Made by a program: the position numbers and the translations under genes. 64,000 bases of DNA from Symbiodinium sp. CCMP2592 (Eukaryota > Sar > Dinophyceae > Suessiales > Symbiodiniaceae), in assembly GCA_905221615.1 (NCBI GenBank), contig CAJNDT010006127.1:288001-352000 (forward strand), given 5' to 3'. How positions within the stretch are numbered: position 1 is the first letter of the stretch; each line of letters opens with the position of its first letter. The notes under the pieces are model-generated. The model was not told where the DNA came from, did not search any database, and worked only from the letters and a program-made list of their open reading frames with translations. Of this stretch, positions 5,108-58,402 are shown piece after piece.

Positions 5108-5113
5108 CAGCTC

Positions 5114-5399: not shown

Positions 5400-5413
5400 A
5401 ATTAACCGCAGTC

Positions 5414-6727: not shown

Positions 6728-7051
6728 TTCCTTCCTTCACCCGCAGCGCTGTCGTTGGTCAACGCCTCGCGTAGGCCCTAAGCGAGCACACGGTAGTTGT
6801 TGTGTGCCGGCAACTTCAAGTTGCTAGGGCACTCCGTGCCGAAGCACAAGAGCGAGTGCCTGCACGCCCGACACGAATGTACAGCGACGTGCACGCTACA
6901 GAAAACTAAGTACAAAGCTCGAGTCAAGGATCTAGAAAGGCATATGCGACAATGACAAAGAAGTACACTGTACAACTAACGGTTTTTACCGAGGTTCAGC
7001 GGGCTCAGACAGTAAGCAAAAAATGAAAGCATCATAGATGGACATGTCGCT
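6728..7051 (-). other. LINE-A 3' untranslated region
   Basis: No coding potential is supported. The extreme 3' end on the minus strand is purine-rich (ggtgaaggaaggaa), a simple repeat taking the place of a poly-A tail. Confidence 0.6.
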
Positions 7052-13263: not shown

Positions 13264-13336
13264 GCGAAGCTACGGCTACCGCTACCCCGCCCCAGCCCAC
13301 CACTCGCAGCAAAAACAGTCTCGGGCCGAGAGGCTT

Positions 13337-13349
13337 CATTCACAGAGCT
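13337..13349. repeat. Right target-site duplication of LINE-A
   Basis: Exact copy of 6715-6727. On the minus strand it encodes SSVN of the interrupted RT. Confidence 0.93.
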
Positions 13350-14362: not shown

Positions 14363-14702
14363 ACAATGGGCGATGGCGGCGGCGGGTAGGCTGTTTCGGC
14401 TTTGGTTGCAAAGCCGGTGGGAGTAAGGCCCCAGGGCTCATGTCGATGTTCCGGTGACTGTCCGGGGCAAGAGCGCTGCAAGGATGAGAAGGCATCATGG
14501 CTGGCAGCCAGGGTCGTTCGCTTCGGGCGTGAGCCGCCGAACATGCAGTGGTCGAAGGAGGTGCGGAACGGGCAGAGATGCGCTATGCTCTGAAAAGGTG
14601 TTGTAGCCCAGAACCAAGATCGGTGCGGATTCTCGCAAACGAAGAGCACGTCACGACGGTGGCATTCCAGCGCGACTTTGGCCAAAAAGGCATTATAATG
14701 CA
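14347..14702 (-). pseudogene. YR element 1 methyltransferase-like domain, C-terminal half (frameshifted)
   Basis: One base out of phase with the preceding segment, this frame gives AFLAKVALECHRRDVLFVCE followed by NPHRSWFW, matching element 2 YAFTYRILRYCLERDIVVSLE with NPANSFLW. The ENP tripeptide corresponds to the ENV-type motif VI of C5 methyltransferases. Further on come FDHCMFGGSRPKRTTL and a PWG motif, both conserved with element 2. The slip lies near 14700, where the upstream frame meets TAA after VEAANAL. The domain is probably inactive in this copy. Confidence 0.7.
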
Positions 14703-15850
14703 TTGGCTGCCTCGACTCGTTGTTTATCGGAACCTTGAAGGTTTGGCAAGCCGTCGGGAAACTCGGAAGAGCGGAGGGGTGGCGGGGCGGGAATGGGCAC
14801 GCCTGAATCATCGCAGATCGGGATGTCCCGCGCACGGCTAGAGGTGCCACAAGGTGGGGCTGCTACCACAGCTGATAGCAGCGGATTGCATAGCCAGAAC
14901 ATGGCTAGATCCTGGCCATCTTGAGTGGTTAGATCCGCAATCAAGGGGGCACACGCCGCAGACTCGATGTGTTTGTGGTCAATGCCATGGGCCGTGACTC
15001 CCAGGCGGCGGAGGCAGGCCGTGACACGAGATGTGCCAGCGAAGAGCTCGAACACAACGGGAGTGGCCGGTGCCTTGAAGACGGGGCGCGGTATCGGCAC
15101 CATGGTCCCTTGTTGAATGACGTCACCTGTGGCCAGGTCGGGGGGGCTAAACCCTAGGGAAACCAATGTTGACTGATCAACCTCCGAAAGGGTCGCGAAA
15201 TCGCGGACTACAAACCCGGCTAAAACTACCCGGTAACCATCCCAAGGCATGGTGGCATGCCGCTGATGGGCATCAAAAGTGATACATGTATTAGAGAGCG
15301 GCAAAAGCTCACCGCACAAGTGCGCGTGGGGCAGCGGCCCTGCATGCTCACCTGAAGGGCTTTCGAGCCACAGCTGGCCTTCTTTGAAGGAGGACACCCC
15401 AATCAAGAAATTTGGGAATCCTTTGGCATTATTTCGGTCTGCGTGCAGCGGTGTGAGCACCTGAGCCATCAGGGCCAAGGAAGTGAACGGCAACTCGTGT
15501 CCCCAACTCTTAGCATAAGCGGCTAGCATCCGACACACGGTCGGAAATTCATGACACGTGCGGCGCAGCCCCAACATGGGGCCTTGGACATAGGCACCGA
15601 CACTGAAGGAAAAACTGGATTGGTAGGTGATGTCAGGATGTGATCTGGCGGGAGCTTCTGACGGCAACAAGCTTATGAGCTGTATTATGTCATCAGAAGT
15701 AATTCTAGGCTTACTGAGGCAAGCAGCTGCGAAATCCTCAGCGGTAGCATGCACTTGATCCTGTTGTGCACTGAGGTCTCCTGTCACGGTAGCTGCAGCT
15801 GAACAGTCATGGACGCGCTCAGCAGGATCATTAACCAAGACAGGATCGGT
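14693..15850 (-). CDS. YR element 1 polyprotein N-terminus: 2OG/Fe(II) dioxygenase-like and C5-methyltransferase-like domains
   Basis: The frame follows Gag directly after TGA (15853-15851) with no ATG; the first start-like codon is TTG at 15838. Counting from 15838, residues about 85-215 resemble the double-stranded beta-helix of 2-oxoglutarate/Fe(II) dioxygenases: LTPLHADRNN (H132, D134), FKEGQLWLE, then FDAHQRHATMPWDGYRVVL with H194 and R203. The HxDxxN pattern is like TET/JBP proteins. From about 262 comes a C5-methyltransferase-like fold: VVFELFAGTSRVTACLRRLG (SAM-binding motif I) and VVAAPPCGTSSRAR with the motif IV Pro-Cys pair. Both domains align with YR element 2. The frame ends by a slip before motif VI. 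Confidence 0.75.
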   Translation of the reverse strand, partial: TDPVLVNDPAERVHDCSAAATVTGDLSAQQDQVHATAEDFAAACLSKPRITSDDIIQLISLLPSEAPARSHPDITYQSSFSFSVGAYVQGPMLGLRRTCHEFPTVCRMLAAYAKSWGHELPFTSLALMAQVLTPLHADRNNAKGFPNFLIGVSSFKEGQLWLESPSGEHAGPLPHAHLCGELLPLSNTCITFDAHQRHATMPWDGYRVVLAGFVVRDFATLSEVDQSTLVSLGFSPPDLATGDVIQQGTMVPIPRPVFKAPATPVVFELFAGTSRVTACLRRLGVTAHGIDHKHIESAACAPLIADLTTQDGQDLAMFWLCNPLLSAVVAAPPCGTSSRARDIPICDDSGVPIPAPPPLRSSEFPDGLPNLQGSDKQRVEAANAL

Positions 15851-17077
15851 TCACGCTCCACCCGCGGCCGGACATTGGCCGATGGGGTGAGCTCCCTCGC
15901 ACTTGGCACACACGTGGGCCCTGTTGCAGTTGGGATGCGTGCATCCCTCCAGATTGTACGCGAAGCAGATGCGCTGCCCCTGCTTTGTCATTGGCTTGGC
16001 TCCTTTCTGTCGCAAAACCAAGGGCATAGGAATGCTGCTGGCATCCTGGGCGCCCTTACCCTTCCCCGTTTTGCCCTTGCCTGGCTGTTTGCCCTTGCCT
16101 GCGCCTTTACCCCCTTTGGAGCCCTCATGATTACGCCACTTATTTGCATTGTCAACGTTGGCTGTATTCTTTCGCTTGTGGCCCGCCGGCAGGGGGACAA
16201 GCAAGGAGGACACCGCGTAGGATTCAAGAGCGACATGAAGTGCACGGTCCATGTCACAGGTTCCATCCGGGTTGGCACGGGGTCTTTTGTTTTCCTCAAG
16301 CATATGCACCCAAACGGCCTTGTCTGCCTGAATCAACTGCTCGATGCCGACGCGCTGGTGGTTCGCTGGGGCCGGTCTGCGAAAGTGCATCATAAGCTTA
16401 GCCAGGTAGCTTTCATACGCACTGAGGCTGACGCAATGTGCCATGACATAAGCATACCCTCTGCGTTTAAACCCCTCAAGCAATGCCAACGCACCGTGAA
16501 CTGGTTGATCCGTTGTTTCTGCATGTTCACGCACTGCGATCTTCCCCGCCTCCACTTCAAGAACTTTCGACGGCTTATGGTGATTCAACAGCTCATGCTG
16601 GCGGGAAACACACTTCTTAATCGGAATGTGCTTGAAAACATTTTCGCGGTGTTGCTCACAAGTCAAGTCTAGCAATGAGTGTCCAGGCTCCATTGTTGAG
16701 TCGATGTGCAACCCAGGGTTAGCAGCCTTAAACATGGTCAAGCGTTGGGACTTTTCAGCCTCGGGTAACTTCTGTTTAGTGGTATTGTCTGGATCCAGGA
16801 TTGACTGACGAAGTGCACTGAGCTGAAGGGTTTGCGACTCGAACAACAGGCGCTTGAATGCAGCAACATCACCCAAGGACAGCCCAGGGAGATTCGCCTC
16901 AAGCCACTCCTTCAAGACCTCTTCGGACAGGTCTTGACCGGGAGTCCCAATAAGATGCGCTGTGGTCCCCAGCGTTCTAACCCCCAGACCCTCTAACTTG
17001 CCCACGGTTGGCTGACTCAAGTTGATCTCCTTGCATCGTCGTTGGAAGTGAGCCTCAGAATCAAGGATGGCAGTCAT
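15851..17077 (-). CDS. YR element 1 Gag-like protein
   Basis: A roughly 408-residue protein from ATG at 17077 (MTAILDSEAHFQRRCKEINL), chosen because element 2 Gag begins similarly with MASANLDSEAAFLDRA; an upstream GTG also lies in frame. The N-terminal two thirds are helical. The tail holds a lysine/glycine nucleocapsid-like tract (GGKGAGKGKQPGKGKTGKGKG) and a Cys/His module: CFAYNLEGCTHPNCNRAH followed by CAKCEGAHPIGQC. It presumably binds element RNA and forms particles. It ends in GGA GCG TGA and the polyprotein continues in the same frame, pointing to stop-codon readthrough. Confidence 0.8.
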   Translation of the reverse strand: MTAILDSEAHFQRRCKEINLSQPTVGKLEGLGVRTLGTTAHLIGTPGQDLSEEVLKEWLEANLPGLSLGDVAAFKRLLFESQTLQLSALRQSILDPDNTTKQKLPEAEKSQRLTMFKAANPGLHIDSTMEPGHSLLDLTCEQHRENVFKHIPIKKCVSRQHELLNHHKPSKVLEVEAGKIAVREHAETTDQPVHGALALLEGFKRRGYAYVMAHCVSLSAYESYLAKLMMHFRRPAPANHQRVGIEQLIQADKAVWVHMLEENKRPRANPDGTCDMDRALHVALESYAVSSLLVPLPAGHKRKNTANVDNANKWRNHEGSKGGKGAGKGKQPGKGKTGKGKGAQDASSIPMPLVLRQKGAKPMTKQGQRICFAYNLEGCTHPNCNRAHVCAKCEGAHPIGQCPAAGGA

Positions 17078-17363
17078 TGCGAAATGCACGTCGGACGAGA
17101 GACTTAAGCTAACGTGTTCTTAGTTTGCACCACATGTTTTCTGTTGTCTTGTTGTGACCAAGTCGCATGACGCTCAACATGTCAAGACTCTCAGCCGGGA
17201 CTGCGCGGGTGGTTCAGCAATGATACTCACATGCACTCCTAGGCTGCGCTCACAGACACTGCAAACCCTCAGCGAATACTGCGCACTCCGTCCGATTTCA
17301 CGGCATAAGTACCGTGAGCTGCTCAACTTTTGTGCCCTCGCACGAGTCCCCTTGGACAAGCCT

Positions 17364-18605
17364 CTAAAGGCCGGCAGCTACCCGTCTACAGTTGTGACAT
17401 GTGCCACTGACCTGCCCAAAACTTTTTGGGACGACATAATTCGATGTCCCAACTTTACCACATGCCAAAATGGCGTTTCCTCCCCCAGACCGTGCAATCA
17501 CGTAATGACATTTCTTGGACTTCACATGTACAAGTGAGTCTTTCAAGCCCCACGGCCAGTCCTGCTTTTGGACCTTTTGAGCGGGCTGCTCATCTTCAGA
17601 CGATGTTCCTGAGCTCTCAGCACTCTCGCTGTTGGATGAGGAGCTGGAATCCGAACTGATGTCCACAATCTCGCCCTGGCTCGGTATATCATCACAAGCG
17701 TCTGGCTCCGATTTAACCGCATCCTCAGACAGCTGGGGAAGTGCAGTGAAATACTCAGCACGTGAGTTGTCCGGTTTGAAGCGTCCTGAAGAGATGTCTC
17801 GAAGGACCTGCTCGAACTCCTTCACTGCCGATGTGGCTAAGTCGACGGCATAAATCGCCTGCGATCCGGCTGTGGCCGATGCATGTCTGCCTAACACTGA
17901 CCTCACTGGCTCGCTTACACCGTGCTTCGAACACCATGAGAGTGGAGTGCGTTTGAGCGAATGTGAGGAGATGCGCTTCAGGCGCTCTTCATCACACACA
18001 GGGCCCAATGCGATCCTCAAGAATGACGTAACCTCTGCTGCTCTGATCTCCCGCTTGGCCAGCATTTCACCATCTGCAGATATGGGGGCCTTCAGAAGCG
18101 GACCCTCAACTTTGCCTTGGACCTCCATGCCTACTGCGCTGAGAGCGTCGAGAGCCGCTGACACCCACTGGGTGCCAGTGACGCCCATTGCTGGGATCAG
18201 CACCGGGAGGAGCTTCTTGGATCGTGCCGTGACGCTGTTGGTCTTATGCATCCCGAGATACAAGACAACATACCCTGAAGAATCGTTGAACTCATGCTCA
18301 ATCCACTGAATGTCCGAAAGGTCGCTGTTCCTACAACGGCCATACAGGGCAAAAAGGCATCTGGCCGACATGGCACGATCGAAGCTGTGGGCTCCCCTAT
18401 CGTCCACCATGGTGTGCAATCGGCGTGTTTCACCCACTGTCAGCTCTTCAGCTTGGCGCAACCATTGAACTCCAACTGACATTAATTTGTTCGGCGATCC
18501 CACACACTCGCCGGCTCTGCAAGACGTCGTCCAAGTGGAAACCAAGCACATGATGAAGGAAACGCATCGCACTGAGGACCCCAGCCCCTTTCGAGGCAGC
18601 CGCAC
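17364..18605 (-). CDS. YR element 1 tyrosine recombinase, catalytic half
   Basis: This encodes the recombinase that would insert a circular DNA intermediate. Catalytic-type motifs are ALYGRCRNSDLSDI (first Arg), ISSHSLKRTPLSWCSKHG (His-x-x region with Lys where most recombinases have Arg), and RSVLGRHASATAGSQAIYAV (LGRH and the candidate nucleophilic Tyr). After an acidic serine-rich linker there is a C-terminal Cys/His module (KKCHYVIARSGGGNAILACG, then CHNCRRV) that is also present in element 2. Authentic sequence begins near 18480; the upstream 40 codons of this frame overlap the N-terminal half in another phase, so the gene is split by a frameshift. Confidence 0.85.
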   Translation of the reverse strand: MRLPRKGLGSSVRCVSFIMCLVSTWTTSCRAGECVGSPNKLMSVGVQWLRQAEELTVGETRRLHTMVDDRGAHSFDRAMSARCLFALYGRCRNSDLSDIQWIEHEFNDSSGYVVLYLGMHKTNSVTARSKKLLPVLIPAMGVTGTQWVSAALDALSAVGMEVQGKVEGPLLKAPISADGEMLAKREIRAAEVTSFLRIALGPVCDEERLKRISSHSLKRTPLSWCSKHGVSEPVRSVLGRHASATAGSQAIYAVDLATSAVKEFEQVLRDISSGRFKPDNSRAEYFTALPQLSEDAVKSEPDACDDIPSQGEIVDISSDSSSSSNSESAESSGTSSEDEQPAQKVQKQDWPWGLKDSLVHVKSKKCHYVIARSGGGNAILACGKVGTSNYVVPKSFGQVSGTCHNCRRVAAGL

Positions 18606-19425
18606 CCGCCTTTTTGAGGTCGGTCATATACGCCCACAGCACCGCCTCTGATAAGCAGTCCGAATCTGACGCGGGGCCGTTAAGGTACCATCTGAGAAAT
18701 GTGTTGAAGGCATTTGCACGCTTGTCTATTGTCCAAGGGGAGCGAGTACCGACGGCAGCCGTCACTGATTCTGGATCGACCTTCCCGCTGCGCAGCAGTG
18801 TACAAGGAACTAAGTTCTGGGGCACAAGCCGAATGCCCGCAACCAACTTACCTAAACTAACCTCCAAGACTTCAGCACGTCTTTCGCGGAAAGACAGGTT
18901 CTTAGTGGCTTTGATGGCCACCGCAAAAATTGGCTTACCTTGAAGATACACCTTGGCACTGACAGACACGTAGGTTGTCTCTTGATGGGCTGGCTCCTGG
19001 GCCACAAGGAGCTTTTTAGCAATCAAGGGCATCTTAGGTACTGTTGGCAGTGATGGCAGAGATTCGCTGAAAACGGAACGCATAGGGCCGCGCTCCCAAG
19101 GAAACTGCAGTTTGCTCAAGGATGGATTCGAGACCAACTCGGACGACACCACGGCAGCGACATCAACGAGCGGTGCTATCTCGGACTCGTGAAGGCTGGC
19201 AGCGAAAGTCCTGGTTACAGGAGGTGTGCTCAGGCTTTCATCTGAACCCACCGGTCGCCAAGAGGAGCTGGAACCGGCAGCGAGCTGCTCCAGGTGTTTA
19301 TCGAACTCACTCAAAAATCCTTCCTCGGTTTCAGCTACTTCCCTGTAATGCTTCCATTCTGCGGAAGCATCACATCCTTCTTGCTCTTCCCAAACATCCG
19401 GCTCCAAGTCTGGTGAGGGATCCAC
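18448..19425 (-). CDS. YR element 1 tyrosine recombinase, core-binding half
   Basis: This is the N-terminal portion of the recombinase, with an acidic serine-rich leader and then the helical core-binding region (WTIDKRANAFNTFLRWYLNG, EAVLWAYMTDLKKAGAAASK, SAMRFLHHVLGFHLDDVL). It corresponds to SAGTLTKRAGSLQRLVVQLY and LESLHFLHAIARFLHMDLEL in YR element 2. The frame runs out at 18448, just past the point near 18480 where the other phase takes over, implying an indel. No ATG is near 19425 (the first start-like codon is GTG), so it probably joined the segment 19488-19859 originally. Confidence 0.75.
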   Translation of the reverse strand: MDPSPDLEPDVWEEQEGCDASAEWKHYREVAETEEGFLSEFDKHLEQLAAGSSSSWRPVGSDESLSTPPVTRTFAASLHESEIAPLVDVAAVVSSELVSNPSLSKLQFPWERGPMRSVFSESLPSLPTVPKMPLIAKKLLVAQEPAHQETTYVSVSAKVYLQGKPIFAVAIKATKNLSFRERRAEVLEVSLGKLVAGIRLVPQNLVPCTLLRSGKVDPESVTAAVGTRSPWTIDKRANAFNTFLRWYLNGPASDSDCLSEAVLWAYMTDLKKAGAAASKGAGVLSAMRFLHHVLGFHLDDVLQSRRVCGIAEQINVSWSSMVAPS

Positions 19426-19487
19426 ATTTAGAGGTTCGGGTTGTCTCGAAGTGCTTGCCAGGCCTAAACCACAAGGAAATTGTAGGT

Positions 19488-19859
19488 CTACACCGCTAGC
19501 AACCGCAGGGGGAGTGGTGGAAACTCGGGTCGGGACTCCGGGGCCTCTCCACTGACCACACCACCGAGCGGTTGCTCGTTTGACGGCACAAGCTGTTCAG
19601 AAGGATCTAGAAGATTCTGCACGGATCCGGAGTCACTCATCGGCTCGACTGATAGTACAGGTGTAACTGCAACCCCTGGCACACGCTGGTCTGCTGGCAA
19701 AGTCGTTAAAGTCGCAACCTCTGGCACAAGTTGGTCCGAAGGTAAAACCGCAACCCCCTTATTATCCGAGGTGACGCACAGAGTGGCATCAGGCACTGAG
19801 TGGGCTGCCGCCGGCGGGCGGCCGGGCGTAGCCGGCGCACCTGTGGTGGAGTCAGACAT
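19488..19859 (-). pseudogene. YR element 1 recombinase N-terminal tail
   Basis: From ATG at 19859 the frame reads MSDSTTGAPATPGRPPAA, resembling the element 2 recombinase start MSDLAAQGAGVPTEP. It is a low-complexity Pro/Val/Ser region ending at a stop at 19488, about 60 nt before the next open segment in another phase. I take it as the frameshifted N-terminus. Its ATG overlaps the end of the upstream small ORF. Confidence 0.6.
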
Positions 19860-20226
19860 GACGATATTGCAGGGCGGGGTCACGCAAGGCAATGCGGTAG
19901 AATGACGTGCGGGCCGGATCTAGCACAAATGCAGCTGACTGCAGAAGGGCCCCTCGCGCACGAAAGGAAAGAAAATTAAGCAGCACGGCGCAGGGCCGAG
20001 GGCTGAATGTGATATCCCCGAGATCCACAAGAACCAAATCAGAAGTAGAAGTATTGGCACTGGCGGGACTGTTCGAGGCCGACGGCAGATAAGTCGGGCG
20101 CAAGCGATATTCCAAAACTGTAACCCTGAATTGCAAGGCAGCAATCTGATCCTGCAAGTCCTCTCGCAGCAAGCGGAGGTCCTCTGACAGCACGGCGCTG
20201 GGACCCACAGAGGTGGTGTCACTCAT
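19852..20226 (-). CDS. YR element 1 small ORF0, predicted coiled coil
   Basis: A 124-residue ORF from ATG at 20226, just inside the A1 repeat. Residues about 13-42 form a heptad-like coiled coil (SEDLRLLREDLQDQIAALQF and on); the rest is Ser/Ala-rich then hydrophobic. Its stop codon overlaps the recombinase start (reading CAT GTC TGA, with ATG inside CATG), an arrangement suited to termination-reinitiation. It could be a multimerising Gag-like or RNA-binding cofactor. No equivalent was found in element 2, where only about 220 nt separate A1 from the recombinase start. Confidence 0.5.
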   Translation of the reverse strand: MSDTTSVGPSAVLSEDLRLLREDLQDQIAALQFRVTVLEYRLRPTYLPSASNSPASANTSTSDLVLVDLGDITFSPRPCAVLLNFLSFRARGALLQSAAFVLDPARTSFYRIALRDPALQYRHV

Positions 20227-20298
20227 GAGGCACAAGGCCGAGGTCCCTAAGAGACTACTAGAAGTGTGGAATGACGATGTGAGTATGCAACACGAACA

Positions 20299-20536
20299 CA
20301 AAAATTTCTGCCCATGCCCATGTTGCATGCTGTTTTCACGTGCTCCCTTGAGCATGTCCTCGCGGCGGCGTACACCAGCATTCACAAGTTCAGGCTGCAC
20401 GCAAGAAGTGTTCAAGGTTGCTCGAAACATAAAATCACTTTGCAAATTTTCTTTCCAACTCAATCGGAAGAAGTAAAACTAACCTAGTTTTACAAAACAA
20501 CATCGTAAATTAAAGCGCTATCAACCCGTTGACCGC
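20299..20536 (-). repeat. A1 terminal repeat (5' end) of YR element 1
   Basis: Matches 4870-5107. It ends at gttgaccgc, beyond which the GGAAACC repeat flank begins (tagcaaggtgtggaaaacgc). Confidence 0.9.
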
Positions 20537-20660
20537 TAGCAAGGTGTGGAAAACGCTCGGAAACCTGGAGGAAACCGCAGGAAACCCATGGGAAACCCAT
20601 AGGAAACCACAGGAAACCAGCGGAAACCAGACCGGAAACCATCGGAAACCCCTATGAGGG
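20537..20660. repeat. GGAAACC repeat, right flank of YR element 1
   Basis: Continuation of the repeat seen at 4310-4625. The start gtgtggaaaacgctcggaaacc resembles 4460-4480, giving an approximate picture of the pre-insertion site. Confidence 0.8.
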
Positions 20661-35349: not shown

Positions 35350-35402
35350 CTTAAAGTAGACGACTGCACTTTCAGTGGGTTTGATCTTGATGGACGTTTG
35401 GC

Positions 35403-47996: not shown

Positions 47997-48293
47997 TTCT
48001 TTGTGGTGTGGTGGTTTTCAAGCTCCTATAAATCTTCTTCGTTCTCACCGGGGGAAAATCTTATAGCCCCATTCATACTATAACATAAATGTCAATATGT
48101 CTCAGCAAATATGTTGACCTCTTAGAGGTCTATAAATTATGAAATCTTCCAATCACAATATACATATTTGAAAAGGGATCGGTCCTTTCTTCTTTCAAGC
48201 GATCTGGGGTCTCACGAGGCTGCGCTGCTGCACCAAAAAGGTTTGAAGTCTCCCGGCCACTCTCACTGTGGCCTTCAAGCGAGCCCCAAACCC
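47997..48293 (-). repeat. B2 terminal repeat of YR element 2
   Basis: 297 bp matching B1 at 48526-48822. It contains the palindrome gacctcttagaggtc at 48116-48130. Confidence 0.92.
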
Positions 48294-48310
48294 GGGTGGG
48301 CTGGGAGGGC
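48294..48310. other. Linker between B2 and A2 of YR element 2
   Basis: 17 bp (gggtgggctgggagggc) present only between these two repeats. Confidence 0.7.
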
Positions 48311-48525
48311 AAAAAAATTTTTCTCTCGCCCTTGAGGAGCAGCGCAGCCATAGAACAATTCTCAACAAGTCCATGCTTCGCACGTGAAAAATTTTCTTCA
48401 ACACTAAACAAATTCTTCAAAGAGAGCATGTATAAAATCATGCACCATGAGCTCTAGAAAACCCGCACTCTCCCCGTGCTGACCACCCCCCAAAAGAAAG
48501 ACTAGTCGGCACGCCGAAGACGCCC
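48311..48525 (-). repeat. A2 repeat of YR element 2
   Basis: 215 bp matching A1 at 56755-56969, ending gacgccc immediately before B1. This A-B junction is the one expected in a circular intermediate. Confidence 0.92.
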
Positions 48526-48822
48526 TTCTTTGTGGTGTGGTGGTTTTCAAGCTCCTATAAATCTTCTTCGTTCTCACCGGGGGAAAATCTTATAGCCCCA
48601 TTCATACTATAACATAAATGTCAATATGTCTCAGCAAATATGTTGACCTCTTAGAGGTCTATAAATTATGAAATCTTCCAATCACAATATACATATTTGA
48701 AAAGGGATCGGTCCTTTCTTCTTTCAAGCGATCTGGGGTCTCACGAGGCTGCGCTGCTGCACCAAAAAGGTTTGAAGTCTCCCGGCCACTCTCACTGTGG
48801 CCTTCAAGCGAGCCCCAAACCC
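48526..48822 (-). repeat. B1 repeat of YR element 2
   Basis: 297 bp, identical by eye to B2, starting 9 bp after the polyprotein stop. The palindrome copy is at 48645-48659. Confidence 0.92.
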
Positions 48823-48831
48823 CAGATCATC

Positions 48832-51800
48832 TCACGCTCGGTTGAAGGCCTGGATTCTTCCAACAAGCTCTTCAAGTCTCGAGAAGGGTTGCACACAAGA
48901 TGCTCCGACCGTCACCAAAGACTCCTCTCCTTGGTCTCTCGACGGCGCATCCCCCGGATTGGAGTAGGATGGGACTCTGCAACCCCACCACATGGATGGC
49001 CATTCTCTGTCGAGCTCAGAGAACACTCGGGCTAAAGTGTGCATGGCCCAACTGCGGCTGGCGCCCTTGATCATGACACCTCTGGTTGCATCGTTGTCCA
49101 CCCACCACACTATGCGGCGAGACGACACAAGAGCATTCAGCTGCAGCAGGGAAGCTAGCACAGCAAACATCTCGATCTCGCAGATGAGCTGCTCTCCTAC
49201 CTCTGCTTTCCAAGATTCAAGCAACTGCGACGGGACCTTTCCTGTGAAGACCCAGCCCGTTCCACTGAAGCAATCATGGGCGGCTAGACCAATGCCTCCA
49301 ACATCAGCTTCCCACGATCCGTCGGTCCAAAGATGGATGATGTCAGTTATCATCGCACAGCTCAAGACTCTAGGGTTCTCGTGCTTCAGCAAAGAAACGG
49401 TGTGTTTGCAAAAGTCACTAAGGTCCCTAGGACTAAAGTGCAGACCCCCAACAATCCTCGCAAGAATGTGCGACGCATGCTTCAGCGATCGGCCTGCGTA
49501 AAAGCCCGAGGCGTACTGCAACAGGCCTTGGATGACCTGAGCCTCGTGTCGTCGGATTTCTCCTTTCAAGCTGATCTCCTGAAGACGGTCAACAATCCTC
49601 TCTATCCTGCCCTGTTTGTTGGCTAAGACTACAGTACCCTTAGCAAGATCACCTAAACCCAAATGCATACCAAGGACGTCGAAGTCCGATGCAAAGGGTC
49701 GTCCTTTCGCGCCCGTCTTGGCGTGACGCCAACCTAGGGCGTCCAAAAACGCACTCGCCGCGGTGTCGGCGTTGTCCGCACTTCCTGCCGGCGACATCAG
49801 AGGATAGTCATCAAAGAAGACGGCAGCTGGTATACATAGAAGTTTGTTCAAGAGAAACCACAAGGCTCTAGAAACCCTATTGAAGGCATAAACCGCTGCA
49901 GTACTGCCGAACATCAGTGAGTTCGAAACATATAGGGCATCCTTTCCATCCGATTGCCTAACTGCAATCACTGAAAGAGGTCGGTGGCTCGGATGGATAG
50001 CAAGTTGTTTGTACGCTTTACTGAGGTCAAGGGTTTTGCCCTTCCACTCCGATGCATCCTTGTGCGCTCGGCCTTCGCTCACTTCCCTCGCTACGTGGAG
50101 GGCCATGGCTGAGATGTAGTCCGAATCTTGCAACCGCAGGTGAATGCTGGAGCTGTAGCCCGCGTTTAATTGGGATTCCAAGCAGTTGTCTATGGGTCTG
50201 GGTTTTAGCTCTGCCCCCTGAAGCAAAACAAACCTTCTGATGACTGTCCAATCGTTGGTTCCCAACAATTCCGTAATCTGGCTCTGATCATAGTAGGGGC
50301 CCTCCAAAAAGCCCATGGCCACTTCCTCATCCGTGGCCTCCTTCAAGATCCGGGCCTCCTCCGGGTCTACCCTTTCGAACTTACTCAACAAGGACTTTCG
50401 TCTGGTGGCCGCTGAGGCCATGAGCTCCGTCTCTGTCAAGAAAGCGGGGACAAACTTACGATCAAAGCATTCTGGGCATTGGGAAGTCCCGACCAACCTT
50501 ACCCCTTCCTTTAAGAAACCGATGACTTCGAGATCGTCGTAGCCCTCGGACTTGAGTAAAGATTCCAACGCCAAGATGGATTTGCCGCTCATAACCTTAG
50601 CCACTGCCGGGTGCATGGCCTTGTGAAGCTCCGCCTCAGCATCACTGCATCTCTTCACCTCCTGCTTCACTCGAGCCACCGCCAAGTTTCGCTTCAAGAC
50701 TATGAGCCTCGGGTCTTTAGTCAAGTTTTCTTTCAAGGCAAACAACGTGGCTTTCTCAAGCGGGTTTGAAGAATCTACTGGATGAATGACCTTCTTAGCC
50801 TCCTCTACAAACTGTTCAGGAGTCCTGTATACCCCAACCCTAACCCGGTCACCAACCTTCTCAGCTGGATCCCGTGAACTAATCGGGGTATTGGCCTCCG
50901 AGATGGTCCCTCTCAAAGGGGTGTTACTGGTGGGCTTTGAGGCCTCTGGGATGGTCCCTCCCAAAGGGGTGTTAGGATTGGGATCAGTGGAAGCTCGAAG
51001 CTCCTCACCCCCGATGCTGCGCAAGAGCTTGAAGTGTTTTTGTGATTTGAATGCAACGGCCGGCATAGTAATTACAGACTGGTATTCGGAAACCAGCGGC
51101 TGATGACGCTTGTTTTGTCGGCCCAACATTGCCAACGAGAGGTCCTTAGGGGATGGGCGACGACACAGGTTGAGGCCTAGCGACAAAGCTTTGCGCTCCA
51201 CACAAGAAGCGAAGCGAGAGGCAAACAATGCTGGGTAGGCTGCCTCATCCTTCGTGGCATACCGAATGGATCCAAACTCAACAATTTGTCCCCAAGGTTT
51301 GTGCATGTGCTTTCCATCGCAAAGCGCACGCAACGGCTCGAAGCAGCCAGGCGTTGCAAGCAACTTTGTGCGTTTGGGGCGAAAGCCCCCATGGCAGCAC
51401 AAGTCAAAGATGATTGACTGCAGTCTGGGAAGGATACGGTGAGCAACCCCTTGCGGCTCAAAAGCTTGCAACACCTCCCATAGGAAACTATTTGCGGGAT
51501 TCTCAAGACTGACCACTATGTCGCGCTCCAGGCAATATCGCAAAATGCGATATGTGAAGGCATACAAACGGTTTGCCAACTTTACACGAGTGGCCTCAAC
51601 TGATCCAGGCTTTAAGGAGGGCAGGCCAAGCGGGAACTCACTACTTCTAAGAGGTTGGGGTCCCGGCTGTCCATTGTACAAAGGTCTGCCTCTGGCCTTG
51701 CTGCTGGTCCCGCATGGGGCGCCCAAATGTATTGCGAACGGGCGCTGTGTCTCAAGAAATTCCCAGAACAAAGCTTGCCCTGAATCTGTTGCCAAATCAA

Positions 51801-52641
51801 GCTGCGAAATGGGCACATGAGAATCGCAATGATGTTGGTCGAAACTGTGGACAACGAATCCGCACTGCATCAGGGCCCGGGACAACAAGCCTTTGCCTGC
51901 GAAAACCTCAAACACCATGGGTGGCCGTTCTCCCAGCTGCGCCGTTTGCACAGGCAACGGCACCTCAGGAGGTAGCACGAAGTTCAATTGGTGCGCTGCC
52001 TCCACATCCTTCTGTTCTAATTTTTCAAGTTGCTGCACCACCCAAGTGATTAGCACAACTCTTCGACCTGACCAAGGTTCAGTTTCGTGGTATTTAGACC
52101 AAGCGTCAAAGAGAAGCGGCTCGTCCTCAATTTCGTGAACCGCTCCAACCAGCTCTTTAGAATTGAAGACTCGAACATCGTCCCCAGGGCCCTCGATCCA
52201 CAAGCCCCCCTCCTTAAAATCACTCAAGCGAAAAACTGCATTAGGCCACTGCGCGTTGCGGCCGTCACGATGCAAAGGCGTGAGACTGTTTGCAAAAATG
52301 CCACATGTGGAGAAAACATGACCTGGAAGACGCTCCTGCACAAAGCGGGTCATGACACGACTTGCATACGGAAACTCTGCACACTCCTTACGCAACCCAC
52401 GGAATCCACCTTGGGAATAACAGCCGGTTACGAAGGACTGTTTCACGTCCCTTTGACCCTTCTGAAGATTTCCCTGAGGAAGCATATCAAACAAGGTCAA
52501 CAGATCAGCACTTGAGATTTGGCCCGGTTTACTCAAACGGGCCTTGGACCACCCCTCAGCATCAGGGACCAGCAGGTCCCCAGTTTGCAATGCGCCCCCT
52601 TCGCTCCCTCCACTGATGGGCGCACTCAATGGGAGGGACCT
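48832..52641 (-). CDS. YR element 2 polyprotein: dioxygenase-like, C5-methyltransferase-like, reverse transcriptase, RNase H
   Basis: Open in the Gag frame straight after the Gag TGA (52644-52642); no ATG begins it (first start-like codon TTG at 52629, residue 1 here). Residues about 90-200 form a 2OG/Fe(II) dioxygenase-like fold: LTPLHRDGRN (H120, D122), FKEGGLWIEG, FDAWSKYHETEPWSGRRVVL (H181, R189/R190). Residues 239-475 form a C5-methyltransferase-like fold: MVFEVFAGKGLLSRAL, HLGAPCGTSSKAR (C306), VSLENPANSFLW, CCHGGFRPKRTKLL. A charged linker follows, with a short repeat (NTPLGGTIPEA, NTPLRGTISEA) near 553-580. RT: KPRPIDNCLE (811), KTLDLSKAYKQLAI (D868), VFFDDYP (D940, D941). RNase H: WTDGSW (D1103), EIEMFAVL, WVDNDATR (D1178), GDAPSRD. 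All catalytic-type residues are present. Confidence 0.88.
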   Translation of the reverse strand, partial: RSLPLSAPISGGSEGGALQTGDLLVPDAEGWSKARLSKPGQISSADLLTLFDMLPQGNLQKGQRDVKQSFVTGCYSQGGFRGLRKECAEFPYASRVMTRFVQERLPGHVFSTCGIFANSLTPLHRDGRNAQWPNAVFRLSDFKEGGLWIEGPGDDVRVFNSKELVGAVHEIEDEPLLFDAWSKYHETEPWSGRRVVLITWVVQQLEKLEQKDVEAAHQLNFVLPPEVPLPVQTAQLGERPPMVFEVFAGKGLLSRALMQCGFVVHSFDQHHCDSHVPISQLDLATDSGQALFWEFLETQRPFAIHLGAPCGTSSKARGRPLYNGQPGPQPLRSSEFPLGLPSLKPGSVEATRVKLANRLYAFTYRILRYCLERDIVVSLENPANSFLWEVLQAFEPQGVAHRILPRLQSIIFDLCCHGGFRPKRTKLLATPGCFEPLRALCDGKHMHKPWGQIVEFGSIRYATKDEAAYPALFASRFASCVERKALSLGLNLCRRPSPKDLSLAMLGRQNKRHQPLVSEYQSVITMPAVAFKSQKHFKLLRSIGGEELRASTDPNPNTPLGGTIPEASKPTSNTPLRGTISEANTPISSRDPAEKVGDRVRVGVYRTPEQFVEEAKKVIHPVDSSNPLEKATLFALKENLTKDPRLIVLKRNLAVARVKQEVKRCSDAEAELHKAMHPAVAKVMSGKSILALESLLKSEGYDDLEVIGFLKEGVRLVGTSQCPECFDRKFVPAFLTETELMASAATRRKSLLSKFERVDPEEARILKEATDEEVAMGFLEGPYYDQSQITELLGTNDWTVIRRFVLLQGAELKPRPIDNCLESQLNAGYSSSIHLRLQDSDYISAMALHVAREVSEGRAHKDASEWKGKTLDLSKAYKQLAIHPSHRPLSVIAVRQSDGKDALYVSNSLMFGSTAAVYAFNRVSRALWFLLNKLLCIPAAVFFDDYPLMSPAGSADNADTAASAFLDALGWRHAKTGAKGRPFASDFDVLGMHLGLGDLAKGTVVLANKQGRIERIVDRLQEISLKGEIRRHEAQVIQGLLQYASGFYAGRSLKHASHILARIVGGLHFSPRDLSDFCKHTVSLLKHENPRVLSCAMITDIIHLWTDGSWEADVGGIGLAAHDCFSGTGWVFTGKVPSQLLESWKAEVGEQLICEIEMFAVLASLLQLNALVSSRRIVWWVDNDATRGVMIKGASRSWAMHTLARVFSELDREWPSMWWGCRVPSYSNPGDAPSRDQGEESLVTVGASCVQPFSRLEELVGRIQAFNRA

Positions 52642-53829
52642 TCAGGCACCAGCCTTCGGGCAGCTGGTGTACGGATGATTTCCGAAGCAACCCTTTTTCC
52701 AACACTTGTGGTAGCCCTTTATGCACCGGCCTTGCTTACAGGTATTCTTGCAACCGTGCGTGTTATAAGCGAAACACAAAGGCTTGTTGGCATCATCTTT
52801 GGTCACACAACCCTCCGGCAAATCTAACTTTGAACCTGTCGCGACCTTGCCCTTGTTCCCCTTGTCCTTTCCCTTCTTGCCTTTGCCATCTCCCTTGGGA
52901 GGGGTCCAAGGTACATGCGGGATTACAAGGTTCTGCAAGGGTGCCAAATACTGCATGATGTCAGGGCTCCTAGACAGTCTACTGATCTCCGCGTCCAAAG
53001 CAGGGGCCGCCCCTGGCGAGGCCGTTAAACGTCCCATGAGGTTGTTGCTTGCAAGAATAAACATCTGCTTATCTGCCTCAATGATTTGCGAAAGCGTGAC
53101 ACCCTGAAAGCCCTTCGGCTGCGCTCTCTGAAGAACCGAAAACAAGAATTGAACATGTTCCTCCATGACCCTGAAGCTTGCAAGGTTCGCCAAATCGAAG
53201 GCTAAGGAGCGGCGGCTCCAAGCCTGGCGCAACCTCATCTCGGATGAAACGTCACATGTCTGATCTGCTGATTTCGTTGCAATCTTCAGGTTGTTGTCGG
53301 CATCAATGTTTATGCTGCTGTCCCTCTTCAAGCACTGTGCTTCCTGCGCCCGACTAATCCACTTGCTGGGAACGTGATACTGCAACACACCTGTTTCAAG
53401 CATTTCCACGCACAGGTCTACACACGAGTTGGCTGGCCGGGTTTCAGGAGTGAAAACCAAACCTCCCAGAGACCTCTCCTGCCTAGCCTGCCTATCCAAG
53501 CGTTCCGCCGCTGCAAGCTTCTTAGGATGTCCTTCCACGCCGGGCTCGATGCGGGTACGAACTTCTTCAATTGCCATGCTCACTCCTTCGAAAAGGAGCC
53601 GACGGAGGCTGGCTTTCTGAAAACCAGACGGTCTCATGCCCAATCCATCAATCCAGTTGTCCACGGCCTCGTCGGTGAGGGTCGTTGGTGTAGCAGACAC
53701 TGCGAAGGCCAGGCGGCCAAAGGTGTTGAAGCTGTTGTTCAAGAGTCCTGTAAGGGTTTCCTCGGACAGTCCGATCTTCCTAGCGCGGTCCAAGAAAGCT
53801 GCTTCCGAGTCAAGGTTCGCAGAAGCCAT
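52642..53829 (-). CDS. YR element 2 Gag-like protein
   Basis: About 395 residues from ATG at 53829 (MASANLDSEAAFLDRARKIG), chosen by similarity to the element 1 start; an upstream GTG frame to 53889 is also open. It is mostly helical, with a Lys/Gly nucleocapsid-like tract (GDGKGKKGKDKGNKGK) and a Cys/His-rich end: CFAYNTHGCKNTCKQGRC, then HKCWKKGCFGNHPYTSC. It probably packages element RNA. It terminates in a single TGA, after which the polyprotein continues in phase, the same arrangement as in YR element 1. Confidence 0.85.
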   Translation of the reverse strand: MASANLDSEAAFLDRARKIGLSEETLTGLLNNSFNTFGRLAFAVSATPTTLTDEAVDNWIDGLGMRPSGFQKASLRRLLFEGVSMAIEEVRTRIEPGVEGHPKKLAAAERLDRQARQERSLGGLVFTPETRPANSCVDLCVEMLETGVLQYHVPSKWISRAQEAQCLKRDSSINIDADNNLKIATKSADQTCDVSSEMRLRQAWSRRSLAFDLANLASFRVMEEHVQFLFSVLQRAQPKGFQGVTLSQIIEADKQMFILASNNLMGRLTASPGAAPALDAEISRLSRSPDIMQYLAPLQNLVIPHVPWTPPKGDGKGKKGKDKGNKGKVATGSKLDLPEGCVTKDDANKPLCFAYNTHGCKNTCKQGRCIKGYHKCWKKGCFGNHPYTSCPKAGA

Positions 53830-54009
53830 GACACACCCAGATTCCGCGATCTCACGAACAAAGAACTGACAGAGGTCCCCCCCTTGCACTAGATAATCCC
53901 CTCATCAGAACTTCAAAGACGCATGATCATGTTTCTCTAGTGCGTTCAAGCAAGACTGCCTCGAAGCTGGAGCCAGATGCCATTGGACTTGCAATCGAGC
54001 TCTCACCCA

Positions 54010-54345
54010 GCTCCCCTCTCTCTGGCACCGCTTCCAGGTGCCAGGGGCAGTAGCATCTGCATGACAAGTACGCATATTGCACCGCTCCCAGGCGCCAAGG
54101 CAGTAGCCTCTGCATGACAAGTACGCATATTCTCCCCAATCCCCTCTCTCTGGCACCGCTCCCAGGCGCCAGGGGCAGTAGCATCTGCATGACAAGTACG
54201 CATATTCTTCCGAATCCCCTCTCTCTGGCACCGCTCCCAGGCGCCAGGGGCAGTAGCATCTGCATGACAAGTACGCATATTCTTCCGAATCCCCTCTCTC
54301 TGGCACCGCTCCCAGGCGCCAAGGGAATAGCATCTGCAGACACAA
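54010..54345. repeat. 75-bp tandem repeats between recombinase and Gag genes
   Basis: Three full units of 75 bp (anchors cccctctctctgg at 54141, 54216 and 54291), one shortened unit and a diverged one near 54013. Unit landmarks are catctgcatgacaagtacgc and gcaccgctcccaggcgcc. Because 75 is divisible by 3, all phases stay open across the array; I do not regard these frames as genes. It is absent from YR element 1. Confidence 0.9.
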
Positions 54346-54363
54346 GTGCGCATATCCTCTGCC

Positions 54364-56535
54364 TCACTCGTTCATGGCTCTCGTACATTGCATGCATACA
54401 TCGGGATCTTCAGTCCCAACTCCAGAATATCTGGAGTATCTCGAAGTGCACAAACGACCACAGTAAAAGAAGCCTGAATCCCGAAGACAATGCGCAATGC
54501 CTGATATACTATGAATCCGGCACTGAGAAACATCGACATTAGCAAACGGCACTCTCACTGCAGGTTGGCCTGGAAGCTCAAAGGGCCCGTCGGCCTCAGC
54601 ATCATCAGCCGAGTCCTCCGACTCGCCCTCAAACCCAGCCAACTGCTCTGCGGCCGCCTCATCCCGCGCTCCTGCACCCAGGCCTTGACCTTCCTCAGCC
54701 GCAGCCAAGGCATCAGCAACTTGTAGCACTCTGTCTGCAGGCGCGAGATCTGGCTGAAAAGCTCCGCTTCGGATCGAGCGGTAAAGAGCTAAAAGCTTGC
54801 CGATCAAACTCGTATAAGCCTCGCGGCTATAAGTCACCATACTTTTGACCCCCGGTACAATATGGTGACCCAACAGGAGACGTTCTCCTTTGCTCAGGCG
54901 CACCACTGTTGATCGAGAAGCCCACGTAAGCAGGGTGACCTTCAAAGAATGTGTTCCCAGAACTTGTCCCTCCGATTCAGAGCCTTCCAAAATCTCCGCT
55001 AAGTAGGAAGACGCCTCACCAGCTCCCATAGGCGTGGAGCCCCACTCATCCAGTCGCTGAGACCTTGTAGGGAGGCAAAAGCCATCCGGTCCAGCACCGA
55101 ACGTGAGCCTACACTGGCGTCTGGCTTCAATCCACAAGCGCGCCCAAGAGCATTCAGTAAGCCCCTGCGCCAGCGCCGCGTATGGTGTAAATTTTGTTTT
55201 GGCTTCCTTGCTCAAAGACGTCTTGCTTCCCAGAGCATCCCCAAAAAGAATCTGGCTCTCTCCCGTGCCCAGCAGCTCCAAAAGCTTTAGTTTCTGGGAA
55301 TCCTTCCAGCGACAAACGGCATGCACGCAAAATAAAATCTGTCCCAAGATACATTGAGCAACCGGGCCAGCTCTCACCATTGCTTCTTCAAGTCGCCGCA
55401 CCTGGAAGCATGTCAGCGGATCACGCTGCTCCAACGGCGCCTTTGACATAAAGCATGAATGAGCAACACCCTTGCATCTAGCAGAGATCACCAGCTCCAA
55501 ATCCATATGCAAAAATCTTGCAATGGCATGAAGAAAATGTAAACTCTCCAACATGTGAGCTGGTGATGTTGCCCCACAACCTTCCTCACGCAATGTGGTC
55601 AAAGCAGAATACAAGTCTGCCTCCTCCATGCGCCACGGAGAAGCCACCCCTTGCTTATAAAGTTGAACCACCAGCCTCTGCAAAGAGCCAGCCCTTTTGG
55701 TGAGCGTACCAGCCGATTTTGAACTGAAAGCATCGCTAAAACTCGCTGCAATGATCTCCTCCGTCTCAAGAGCACCCGTTTTCTGCACTAAGCTTTTACC
55801 CAGAGCCGTAGCCAAAGGGTCCAGGAGCACCACAGCTTTAAGCTTCTTCAGAGCATGATTTCTCTCATCTTCATCCGACCTCTGAATGCGCACTCCCTTC
55901 AGTCGTCGCTCAATGGTCCAAGGCACATGGGCTGCCTCTTCCCCTCCGTAGCTCTCTTCCGGCTTCGGAAAGTTTAAAGTCTCTCGCACACCAACGGATG
56001 GAAGGAAAGCAGCACTCGCCCAAGCATGAAGTGAAGAGCTACCCGACTTCCGGTTAAAGGCCGGATGGCTCTCCCACGCCTGCCTTGGTCGTTCCAGCCT
56101 TAGCCTCTTGAAGGAGCTGTGAGCAGCCAATCTGGAAAACGAGAAATCAGAGACCTCATGCAAGGGATTCTCGCTCTCTCTGCCGATTCGCAAGCAGTCA
56201 CCGTCATCTTCCCTGTCCACTCCCAGTCCAGGCGAAAACTCACTGGGAGCGATACTATGATCCTCGTCCCTGATCCCTCTGTACCACTCACTCTCATCAG
56301 CAGCCGAATCTTCAGGAAGAAAATTTAAATCTTCAGACTCCGGGATGTTGTCGTCCGCCTCGCTAGGCAGAGGCCGCTCATCAATCAAGTGCCACATGGA
56401 CACGCGGCTTTCAGAAGACATGGACTCTCCCACCGGCAAATGGCAGCCCGACGGTTCAGCCGCCTCTCTCCCCTGATGAATCGGCCCGGCGGGCTCTGTC
56501 GGAACACCTGCGCCCTGTGCAGCAAGATCACTCAT
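54364..56535 (-). CDS. YR element 2 tyrosine recombinase
   Basis: About 723 residues from ATG at 56535 (MSDLAAQGAG); a GTG frame continues to 56550. The N-terminal 230 residues are acidic and low-complexity. The core-binding helices (SAGTLTKRAGSLQRLVVQLY) precede the catalytic region: HAVCRWKDSQKLKLLEL (first Arg, about residue 407), GTHSLKVTLLTWASR (His with Lys in place of the usual second Arg, about 528), LLLGHHIVPGVKSMVTYSRE (LGHH and the candidate nucleophilic Tyr, about 568). A C-terminal Cys/His module (CRIHSISGIAHC ... YCGRLC ... CMQC) is shared with element 1. It would integrate circular DNA; its position upstream of Gag is unusual. Confidence 0.9.
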   Translation of the reverse strand: MSDLAAQGAGVPTEPAGPIHQGREAAEPSGCHLPVGESMSSESRVSMWHLIDERPLPSEADDNIPESEDLNFLPEDSAADESEWYRGIRDEDHSIAPSEFSPGLGVDREDDGDCLRIGRESENPLHEVSDFSFSRLAAHSSFKRLRLERPRQAWESHPAFNRKSGSSSLHAWASAAFLPSVGVRETLNFPKPEESYGGEEAAHVPWTIERRLKGVRIQRSDEDERNHALKKLKAVVLLDPLATALGKSLVQKTGALETEEIIAASFSDAFSSKSAGTLTKRAGSLQRLVVQLYKQGVASPWRMEEADLYSALTTLREEGCGATSPAHMLESLHFLHAIARFLHMDLELVISARCKGVAHSCFMSKAPLEQRDPLTCFQVRRLEEAMVRAGPVAQCILGQILFCVHAVCRWKDSQKLKLLELLGTGESQILFGDALGSKTSLSKEAKTKFTPYAALAQGLTECSWARLWIEARRQCRLTFGAGPDGFCLPTRSQRLDEWGSTPMGAGEASSYLAEILEGSESEGQVLGTHSLKVTLLTWASRSTVVRLSKGERLLLGHHIVPGVKSMVTYSREAYTSLIGKLLALYRSIRSGAFQPDLAPADRVLQVADALAAAEEGQGLGAGARDEAAAEQLAGFEGESEDSADDAEADGPFELPGQPAVRVPFANVDVSQCRIHSISGIAHCLRDSGFFYCGRLCTSRYSRYSGVGTEDPDVCMQCTRAMNE

Positions 56536-56754
56536 ATCAAGGCTGGGCACAGAAGAAGCTAAAACGGATTTGCCAGCTTACGCGAAGCAGTTGCAGGCGC
56601 TCGACAGAGAAAAGGCAGGCCCAAATCAAGCTGGCAGCGTCTCTCAGCTGAGTTGTTCTGGCCAAAGCGGCCTGCATGGCTGGGCCCACCTCTATCAAAA
56701 GCACTGGATTAGGGGCTCGGAACCTGCTAGACAGATGTCAGCCCCCAGTCTGAA
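56536..56754. other. YR element 2 5' leader
   Basis: About 220 bp between A1 and the recombinase ATG. No equivalent of the ORF0 of element 1 is evident. Confidence 0.5.
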
Positions 56755-56969
56755 AAAAAAATTTTTCTCTCGCCCTTGAGGAGCAGCGCAGCCATAGAAC
56801 AATTCTCAACAAGTCCATGCTTCGCACGTGAAAAATTTTCTTCAACACTAAACAAATTCTTCAAAGAGAGCATGTATAAAATCATGCACCATGAGCTCTA
56901 GAAAACCCGCACTCTCCCCGTGCTGACCACCCCCCAAAAGAAAGACTAGTCGGCACGCCGAAGACGCCC
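56755..56969 (-). repeat. A1 terminal repeat (5' end) of YR element 2
   Basis: 215 bp matching A2. The outer end gacgccc abuts aaccttgtagc of the interrupted LINE-C region. Confidence 0.92.
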
Positions 56970-57926: not shown

Positions 57927-58202
57927 GCTCGAGCGGTCGGTCCGCTGGGCTGAGCCCAGTTCGAGTCAGGGTGAGACGAAGCTTTAGGGGAGTCACCTCA
58001 CCCTGATTTGGGAGCCTAGTCCACTTTGGGAGCGGCGAGTTTCTCTAGACCAGTCTGACATCAAGTGATGTCCTTAAACAGCACCCTCGGCACAGACTGG
58101 TCGAGCTCACCTGCCTACTGCGGTTGCCTTCAGCCTACCTTCCAAGGAGTCTCCTCACTTTGAGCTAGGCGGCAACAAAAGGGGGTGCAAGGGAGGTGTC
58201 TC
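57923..58202. repeat. LINE-C 3' region, uninterrupted copy (empty site of YR element 2)
   Basis: Continuous with 58203 onward. The position equivalent to the insertion is ggtgtctc|aaccttgtag near 58202/58203. Confidence 0.88.
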
Positions 58203-58402
58203 AACCTTGTAGCTTCTCCAAGTCCACGGAGTCTCCTCACGTTGTTGGCTTGTAGAGCAAGGGAGTAACCTCACCTTGAGCAGACTTAGGCTTGTGACCA
58301 AATTGGCTCGTTGAATTAAAGCTGGAAAGGGGAGTCTCCTCACCCTGGAGCGGCTTGCAAGCTTAAGGGAGTCACCTCACCTTAAAACCCTTCAGGGGTT
58401 TC

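Follow-up and report, generated by a model that had tools for sequence, protein, structure and literature searches.

Cytosine methyltransferases were described in 2018 in DIRS-like and LINE elements of dinoflagellates, those of the DIRS-like elements (SymbioDIRS-Dnmt3) being of the Dnmt3 type (de Mendoza et al., PMC5890265). Oxygenases of the TET/JBP type are carried by fungal mobile elements, where the hosts of the domain are DDE transposons and Helitrons; the 2025 survey of these TET-carrying transposons reports no retrotransposon with a TET/JBP domain (PMC12730594). The pair of a C5-methyltransferase and a TET/JBP enzyme is also found in phage cassettes, as separate genes accompanied by glycosyltransferases (summarised in PMC12730594). 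Here we describe a stretch of 64,000 nucleotides of Symbiodinium sp. CCMP2592 (assembly GCA_905221615.1, contig CAJNDT010006127.1, positions 288,001 to 352,000; hereafter the window) that contains a complete tyrosine-recombinase (YR) retrotransposon of 8973 bp, in whose pol frame a TET/JBP-like 2-oxoglutarate (2OG)/Fe(II) dioxygenase and a C5-methyltransferase-like domain precede the reverse transcriptase (RT) and an RNase H-like region (Table 1).

The element resembles SymbioDIRS-Dnmt3 in being DIRS-like, in its A-coding-B-A-B repeats, in its putative tyrosine-recombinase open reading frame (ORF) and in the placement of a cytosine-methyltransferase, or here a domain resembling one, in the Pol ORF; the order of the ORFs varies in those elements too (PMC5890265). 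The methyltransferases differ: according to the same source theirs cluster with Dnmt3, and DNMT genes were counted there by PF00145, whereas this profile, at E<=5, matches none of 30 pol proteins and none of 13 domain pieces of the present group. The first-pass annotation of this DNA, made from its letters, had referred to retrotransposon-borne cytosine methyltransferases in dinoflagellates, and these have indeed been reported, but the present domain is not of that Dnmt3 type, since it lacks a PF00145 match, and a Dnmt3 identity was rejected on the same counts. The words 'TET', 'dioxygenase' and 'hydroxymethyl' do not occur in the main text of the 2018 report. DIRS, Ngaro and VIPER elements share with ours split direct repeats of the form A1...B1A2B2 and have a YR and RT/RNase H (PMC6681497), of which ours has putative counterparts; the present element departs from them by its recombinase-gag-pol order, its gag and pol in one frame around a TGA, the His-x-x-Lys of its recombinase and its two domains of DNA-modification type before the RT. 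It differs from the fungal elements in that the oxygenase is fused to an RT beside a methyltransferase-like domain, and from the phage cassettes in that everything lies in one polyprotein with the RT (PMC12730594); a Pfam scan of its three ORFs recognised no glycosyltransferase. In the open-licence PMC literature searched, mostly titles and the beginnings of abstracts, we found no report of such a fusion.

Table 1. Features of the window, with positions counted from its first letter.
Feature	Position	Strand	Remarks
Complete YR (DIRS/Ngaro-like) retrotransposon	47997..56969	-	8973 bp; repeats, paralogous empty site, same ends in other copies
Repeat A1, 5' terminal	56755..56969	-	about 99% identical to A2
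ORF 1, tyrosine-recombinase-like	54364..56550	-	728 aa; CRWKDS, SKTS, HSLK, GHH, TYSREA (Arg, Lys, His-x-x-Lys, His, Tyr)
75-bp tandem repeats	54003..54356	-	between recombinase ORF and gag
Gag-like ORF	52642..53889	-	415 aa; Cys/His knuckle-like C terminus; no Pfam match
Single in-frame TGA separating gag from pol	52642..52644	-	same frame
pol open frame	48832..52641	-	1269 codons after the TGA; last of the element's three ORFs
TET/JBP-like 2OG/Fe(II) dioxygenase	51964..52557	-	residues 25-222; H120, D122, N125, H181, R190
C5-methyltransferase-like domain	51172..51924	-	residues 236-486; motif I FEVFAGKG, IV P305-C306, VI E376-N377-P378
Reverse transcriptase core (Pfam RVT_1)	49732..50094	-	residues 846-966; FFDD at 938; E 8.1e-5, under the Pfam cut-off
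RNase H-like region	48934..49326	-	TDGS (1102), DNDATR (1178), to DAPSR (1227); motifs read in the sequence
Repeat B1	48526..48822	-	100% identical to B2
Repeat A2	48311..48525	-	adjoins B1 exactly
Repeat B2, 3' terminal	47997..48293	-	100% identical to B1
Paralogous copy of the flanks without element (empty site)	58140..58265		strand unspecified
Element 2, diverged, same kind (recombinase-gag-TGA-pol)	4641..20540	-	ends approximate; pol also with dioxygenase and methyltransferase-like parts
Element 2 gag-pol TGA	15851..15853	-

By its anatomy the element is a tyrosine-recombinase retrotransposon of the DIRS/Ngaro type. Read on the minus strand it consists of A1, the recombinase-like ORF, the 75-bp tandem repeats, the gag-like ORF, pol, B1, A2 and B2, from a 5' end GGGCGTCTTCGG at 56969 to a 3' end CACCACAAAGAA at 47997, both constant among copies, and the exact abutment of B1 and A2 is what a former circle junction would give. 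The host sequence on either side is part of a tandem duplication (56969-59151; a host or repeat unit of about 1.23 kb), one copy of which is split by the element while the other provides an empty site; when the flanks are joined they align to this site with no target duplication, and the flanks of other copies are also unlike. The alignment did not settle the last few bases of the flanks, and the end points were set by comparing loci of the window's own family (family 1; loci elsewhere in the genome carry L numbers). Insertion without target duplication is a property of the YR class of retrotransposons. The split repeats, A1 together with B1-A2-B2, are found in 8 of 11 family-1 loci (A1 is partial in L012 and L013), and the remaining three (L015, L016, L019) contain B1-A2-B2 and meet a contig end before A1. 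Flanks differ among family-1 copies, except for one 3' flank common to L015-L019, which may represent a single insertion because they share it.

The pol frame lies directly behind the TGA, is uninterrupted from 52641 and is numbered here from its first TTG at position 52629 (48832-52629, 1265 aa). It encodes dioxygenase, methyltransferase-like domain, RT and RNase H in that order, and the frame and all motifs that the first-pass annotation had quoted (LTPLHRDGRN, FKEGGLWIEG, YHETEPWSGRR, FEVFAGKG, GAPCGTSS, ENP, FRPKRT) are present on the minus strand, together with FFDD and TDGS. That annotation had not remarked on the ends and split repeats of the element, its recombinase and gag ORFs upstream of pol, the TGA or the second, diverged element of the window. 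The placing of RT and RNase H in the same frame by the annotation is likewise borne out by the last two motifs and by RVT_1, which is matched by 21 of 30 pol relatives at E<=5; Pfam RT_RNaseH gives a weak match in two of the 30. Homologues of pol at E<=1e-3 number 58 among 8000 candidate proteins scored, the best being 97% identical and from Symbiodinium sp. CCMP2592 itself. A search of the genome of this organism (1,098,105,373 bases, 5383 contigs) gave at least 43 pol matches. Twelve loci, the window included, cover pol 1-1265 at 97-100%, eleven without internal stop and L009 with one TAA; other families present in the genome, at 35-45% identity, have long open frames too. A chance or mosaic frame was ruled out by the 58 homologues, the full-length genomic copies, the nearly invariant catalytic letters and the low ratios of nonsynonymous to synonymous change (dN/dS) given below. 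Among the 26 stretches of IMG/VR that fitted the pattern used to search for pol relatives, none encodes one.

Structure prediction with AlphaFold2 gave the dioxygenase domain a mean predicted local distance difference test score (pLDDT) of 93.3, and all 50 listed rows in each of its fold comparisons with the PDB are 2OG-type oxygenases; a named viral match is JBP1/TET of a phage. As modelled, the domain has the double-stranded beta-helix fold of 2OG/Fe(II) enzymes. The presumed ligands are nearly invariant among 51 domain hits, counted over the rows that have a letter at the position (H120 and D122 42/42, H181 38/39, R190 37/38), and the dioxygenase residues are intact in 18/18 aligned pol rows from the same genome. 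In TET2 the Asn of the His-x-Asp-x-x-Asn block contacts the base. When the 1.1-Gb genome was searched with the Tet_JBP profile (PF12851) at E<=1e-3, only four matches were obtained, the best at 2.2e-4, and all four fall in pol frames of this element type. Tested against the domain alone, the profile matches a sister family (L026, 4.2e-7, 29.8 bits; L028, 5.5e-7, 29.4 bits; the Pfam cut-off is 34.9) and only one, weakly (0.0055), of 11 dioxygenase domain pieces; it does not match the window's own dioxygenase, nor those of L020, L022 and L024. When the window's oxygenase, as a sequence or as a profile, was matched directly to PDB sequences, nothing relevant came up, at most two unrelated chains (best 0.005). 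The TET/JBP-type dioxygenase that the first-pass annotation had suggested is thus supported by fold, by motifs and by the Tet_JBP match of the sister family, the 2OG fold being present in the predicted structure.

Fold comparison places AlkB, NMAD-1, FTO and P4H level with NgTET1, and Asp_Arg_Hydrox gives a weak match (0.0089) in one of 11 members, so that the dioxygenase might instead be AlkB- or prolyl-hydroxylase-like and act on RNA or protein, for example by repairing or marking the genomic RNA of the element. We consider this quite improbable: at E<=1, L026 and L028 match no Pfam profile other than Tet_JBP, and the neighbouring domain has a C5-methyltransferase fold, for which the listed rows are DNA enzymes (although the fold is shared by DNMT2, which methylates tRNA).

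For the neighbouring domain, an AlphaFold2 model of residues 236-486, computed with 12 relatives, reached a mean pLDDT of 90.8. The top 47 Foldseek rows are C5-methyltransferases, and in the ranking by Z M.HhaI comes first (13.2; root-mean-square deviation 3.6, 202 aligned), with 50/50 listed rows C5-methyltransferases. On the model, the domain has the C5-methyltransferase fold. This fold and the Pro-Cys and Glu-Asn motifs bear out the C5-methyltransferase-like domain proposed in the first-pass annotation, whose methyltransferase region thereby stands at the level of the fold. Two PHROG families of DNA methyltransferases match 8/13 and 6/13 members, the window piece excluded, and a tblastn search with this domain only found no phage relatives. 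Matching of the methyltransferase profile to PDB sequences was discarded, as DNMT2 (0.036) was outranked by an unrelated potassium-uptake protein (0.0029) and the cytosine-specific methyltransferase 3g7u stood at 1.3. Towards the end of the domain Cys411, Cys437, His441 and His443 are conserved, the two histidines less so (87/125 and 79/125 rows with a letter); these residues could form a metal site replacing the usual target-recognition part.

The catalytic letters of the methyltransferase are widely kept: among 164 domain hits, rows with a letter show Cys306 in 145/149, Pro305 in 134/149, Glu376 in 147/150 and Asn377 in 148/150. The motif IV Cys is present in family 1, L022, L023, L026-L029 and element 2, and L014 has Ser instead of the Pro before it. 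In L020, L021, L024 and L025 this Cys is replaced by Ala (PPAGTAS, VPAGSAS), while ENP and all five oxygenase residues are kept. These two families weigh against a scheme in which every element first methylates and then oxidises; since they have lost the catalytic Cys, that sequence of reactions would not be universal, and the proposal of the first-pass annotation that the element may act by both methylation and oxidation is unlikely to hold as a general rule. Their oxygenase would therefore have to use thymine or methylcytosine placed by the host. Oxidation, being common to all families with both domains, appears the likelier selected function in them.

The Ala families also lend themselves to a JBP-like explanation, according to which the dioxygenase makes 5-hydroxymethyluracil (5hmU) from thymine and the methyltransferase-like domain serves mainly as a DNA-binding or base-flipping partner, so that no pair of methylating and oxidising enzymes exists. 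The methyltransferase of L024/L025, lacking its Cys, is under purifying selection (dN/dS 0.101) beside an intact oxygenase, and dinoflagellate DNA does contain 5hmU, which is enriched over repeats in Breviolum minutum (PMC11071213). Against this explanation, the Cys is retained in most families and in nearly all homologue rows, as detailed above, and the His-x-Asp-x-x-Asn block of L026 is by sequence nearest, weakly (E 0.14), to TET2 among solved chains, an enzyme acting on 5-methylcytosine (5mC). On balance we hold the JBP-like explanation to be somewhat unlikely.

Selection on the two domains was assessed by the method of Nei and Gojobori; between families dS is mostly saturated. For the window and L010, dN/dS is 0.146 for the oxygenase (18 synonymous and 10 other changes), 0.098 for the methyltransferase and 0.039 for the RT, and for L024 and L025 the oxygenase and RT values are 0.116 and 0.058. 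With values of about 0.1 in these two informative pairs, both extra domains are constrained, somewhat less than the RT. Two further pairs, each with few changes, gave 0.363, 0.390 (5 synonymous and 6 other changes) and 0.035 for oxygenase, methyltransferase and RT, respectively, in L020/L021, and 0.045, 0.164 and 0.071 in L022/L023. Among the 58 homologous proteins, some of which are truncated, both domains occur in 22, the methyltransferase without the oxygenase in 34 and the oxygenase without the methyltransferase in 2. On the RT tree (49 rows, 43 labelled) the presence of the oxygenase requires at least seven changes, which does not support a single gain or loss, although seven may be too many, because some rows scored as absent (P0010, P0049) look like artefacts of gene models. 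Judged from these sequences, this dinoflagellate pol seems to have the methyltransferase-like domain as a regular component, and the oxygenase as a widespread one that was repeatedly lost or gained. Such patchiness, together with the Cys to Ala change in two families, would fit extra domains that are inactive passengers kept for Pol folding or for binding RNA or DNA; near-invariant metal and 2OG ligands and low dN/dS wherever the domain is present argue the other way, and make passengers very improbable.

Family 1 has moved recently, because its copies are nearly identical: the pol DNA of each of L010-L019 departs by about 4% from that of the window, and among themselves these copies are 99.71-99.92% identical in the 15 of 45 pairwise comparisons listed. 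With these ten further copies carrying an intact pol, a fossil element was ruled out for this family.

Five of seven aligned recombinase-like sequences cover the core (the window ORF, its near-copy P0012, P0025, P0049 and element 2), and in these five the Arg, Lys and His, a further His and the Tyr fall at corresponding positions. Tyrosine recombinases usually carry His-x-x-Arg, where this ORF and its relatives have His-x-x-Lys; a Pfam scan of it gave no integrase match, and no related loci were found in IMG/VR. Behind it, the arrangement of gag, TGA and pol in a single frame recurs in 17/17 loci L009-L025 and 4/4 loci L026-L029, and thus in six families (family 1, L020/L021, L022/L023, L024/L025, element 2 and L026-L029), which share 31-41% identity with one another in the N-terminal part of pol; the stop was TGA in all loci inspected, never TAA or TAG. 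The first in-frame ATG after the TGA stands at codon index 52 in the window, 91 in element 2, 120 in L024 and 117 in L025, and L020 and L022 have none within the first 300 codons. Readthrough of UGA would be the simplest account of this arrangement, which makes the element a candidate dinoflagellate readthrough system. No RNA fold behind the TGA, as a possible readthrough signal, was common to the window, element 2, L020, L022 and L024 (z of -0.81, -2.83 with 4/200 shuffles as good, -0.41, 0.09 and -1.71, respectively; in L020 and L022 the sequence that was folded starts 34 and 66 bases past the stop, not adjacent to it).

We propose as the best explanation a recently active YR retrotransposon whose dioxygenase oxidises a 5-methylpyrimidine in DNA, a core claim that we regard as reasonably probable. 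Gag would arise from normal termination and Gag-Pol by reading through the single TGA; Pol would copy the RNA via the split repeats into circular double-stranded complementary DNA (cDNA), which the recombinase would insert without target duplication. In this way Gag-Pol would bring a pair of enzymes suited to C5-pyrimidine marking to where reverse transcription takes place. While the cDNA is being made, or afterwards, the methyltransferase-like domain may bind the new DNA and, in families with an intact Cys, methylate cytosine, and the dioxygenase may hydroxylate the 5-methyl group of 5mC or thymine to yield 5-hydroxymethylcytosine (5hmC) or 5hmU. The oxidised bases could then form a mark by which the element avoids or overrides silencing or degradation by the host. 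CpG depletion, considered as a footprint of methylation, was uninformative. With both domains joined to its RT in a single protein, the element may be able to edit its own DNA, or that of its host, chemically.

By analogy with the proposal for fungal TET-carrying DNA transposons, the dioxygenase might also act in trans, stripping host 5mC from integrated copies to counter silencing. Apart from the fungal parallel (PMC12730594), the occurrence of host CG methylation in Symbiodinium (PMC5890265) speaks for such a role. An oxygenase that sits in Pol, however, is expected to be packaged or, depending on readthrough, scarce, and a neighbouring methyltransferase adding 5mC would counteract it, save in the Cys-less families. 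We think this rather unlikely, and prefer oxidation at the element's own reverse transcription.

Another such element, diverged from the first, lies in the window (element 2). It is broken by a LINE-like ORF at 7462-13263, and its A repeats (20298-20540 and 4869-5111) are 99.6% identical; read by eye, its B2 seems internally deleted relative to B1. LINE-like units at 28808-37019(-) and 38838-45012(-) contain an Exo_endo_phos domain, one of them also RVT_1, and lie beside an ORF that encodes an OTU-like cysteine protease domain. Note also that an exact 21-base match to the dinoflagellate spliced leader is present at 3536-3556(-), where none is expected by chance; it bears out the dinoflagellate origin of the DNA and is possibly the relic of a retrogene. 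Neither tRNA nor Rfam families were found in the window.

The element would be the first known retroelement with a TET/JBP-type oxygenase, as judged from searches of open-licence PMC literature and from what the survey of fungal elements expressly states (PMC12730594), and this oxygenase is joined to a methyltransferase-like domain and an RT within a single polypeptide. The arrangement suggests that cDNA may be chemically marked while it is being made, and it points to a specific protein, amenable to expression, as a candidate for the enzyme that makes dinoflagellate 5hmU; in the main text of the 2024 map of this base, the words 'JBP' and 'dioxygenase' do not occur (PMC11071213). Because the only Tet_JBP matches of the genome at the threshold used lie in pol frames, and because 5hmU favours repeats in Breviolum, the TET/JBP-like enzymes of retrotransposons might even be chiefly responsible for the oxidised pyrimidines (5hmU, perhaps 5hmC) of dinoflagellate DNA. 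We consider this distinctly doubtful, and a host enzyme may exist, since the search would miss an intron-rich gene and even the copy in the window escapes the profile. If it were true, the peculiar base of dinoflagellate chromosomes would be the product of the self-marking system of a mobile element.

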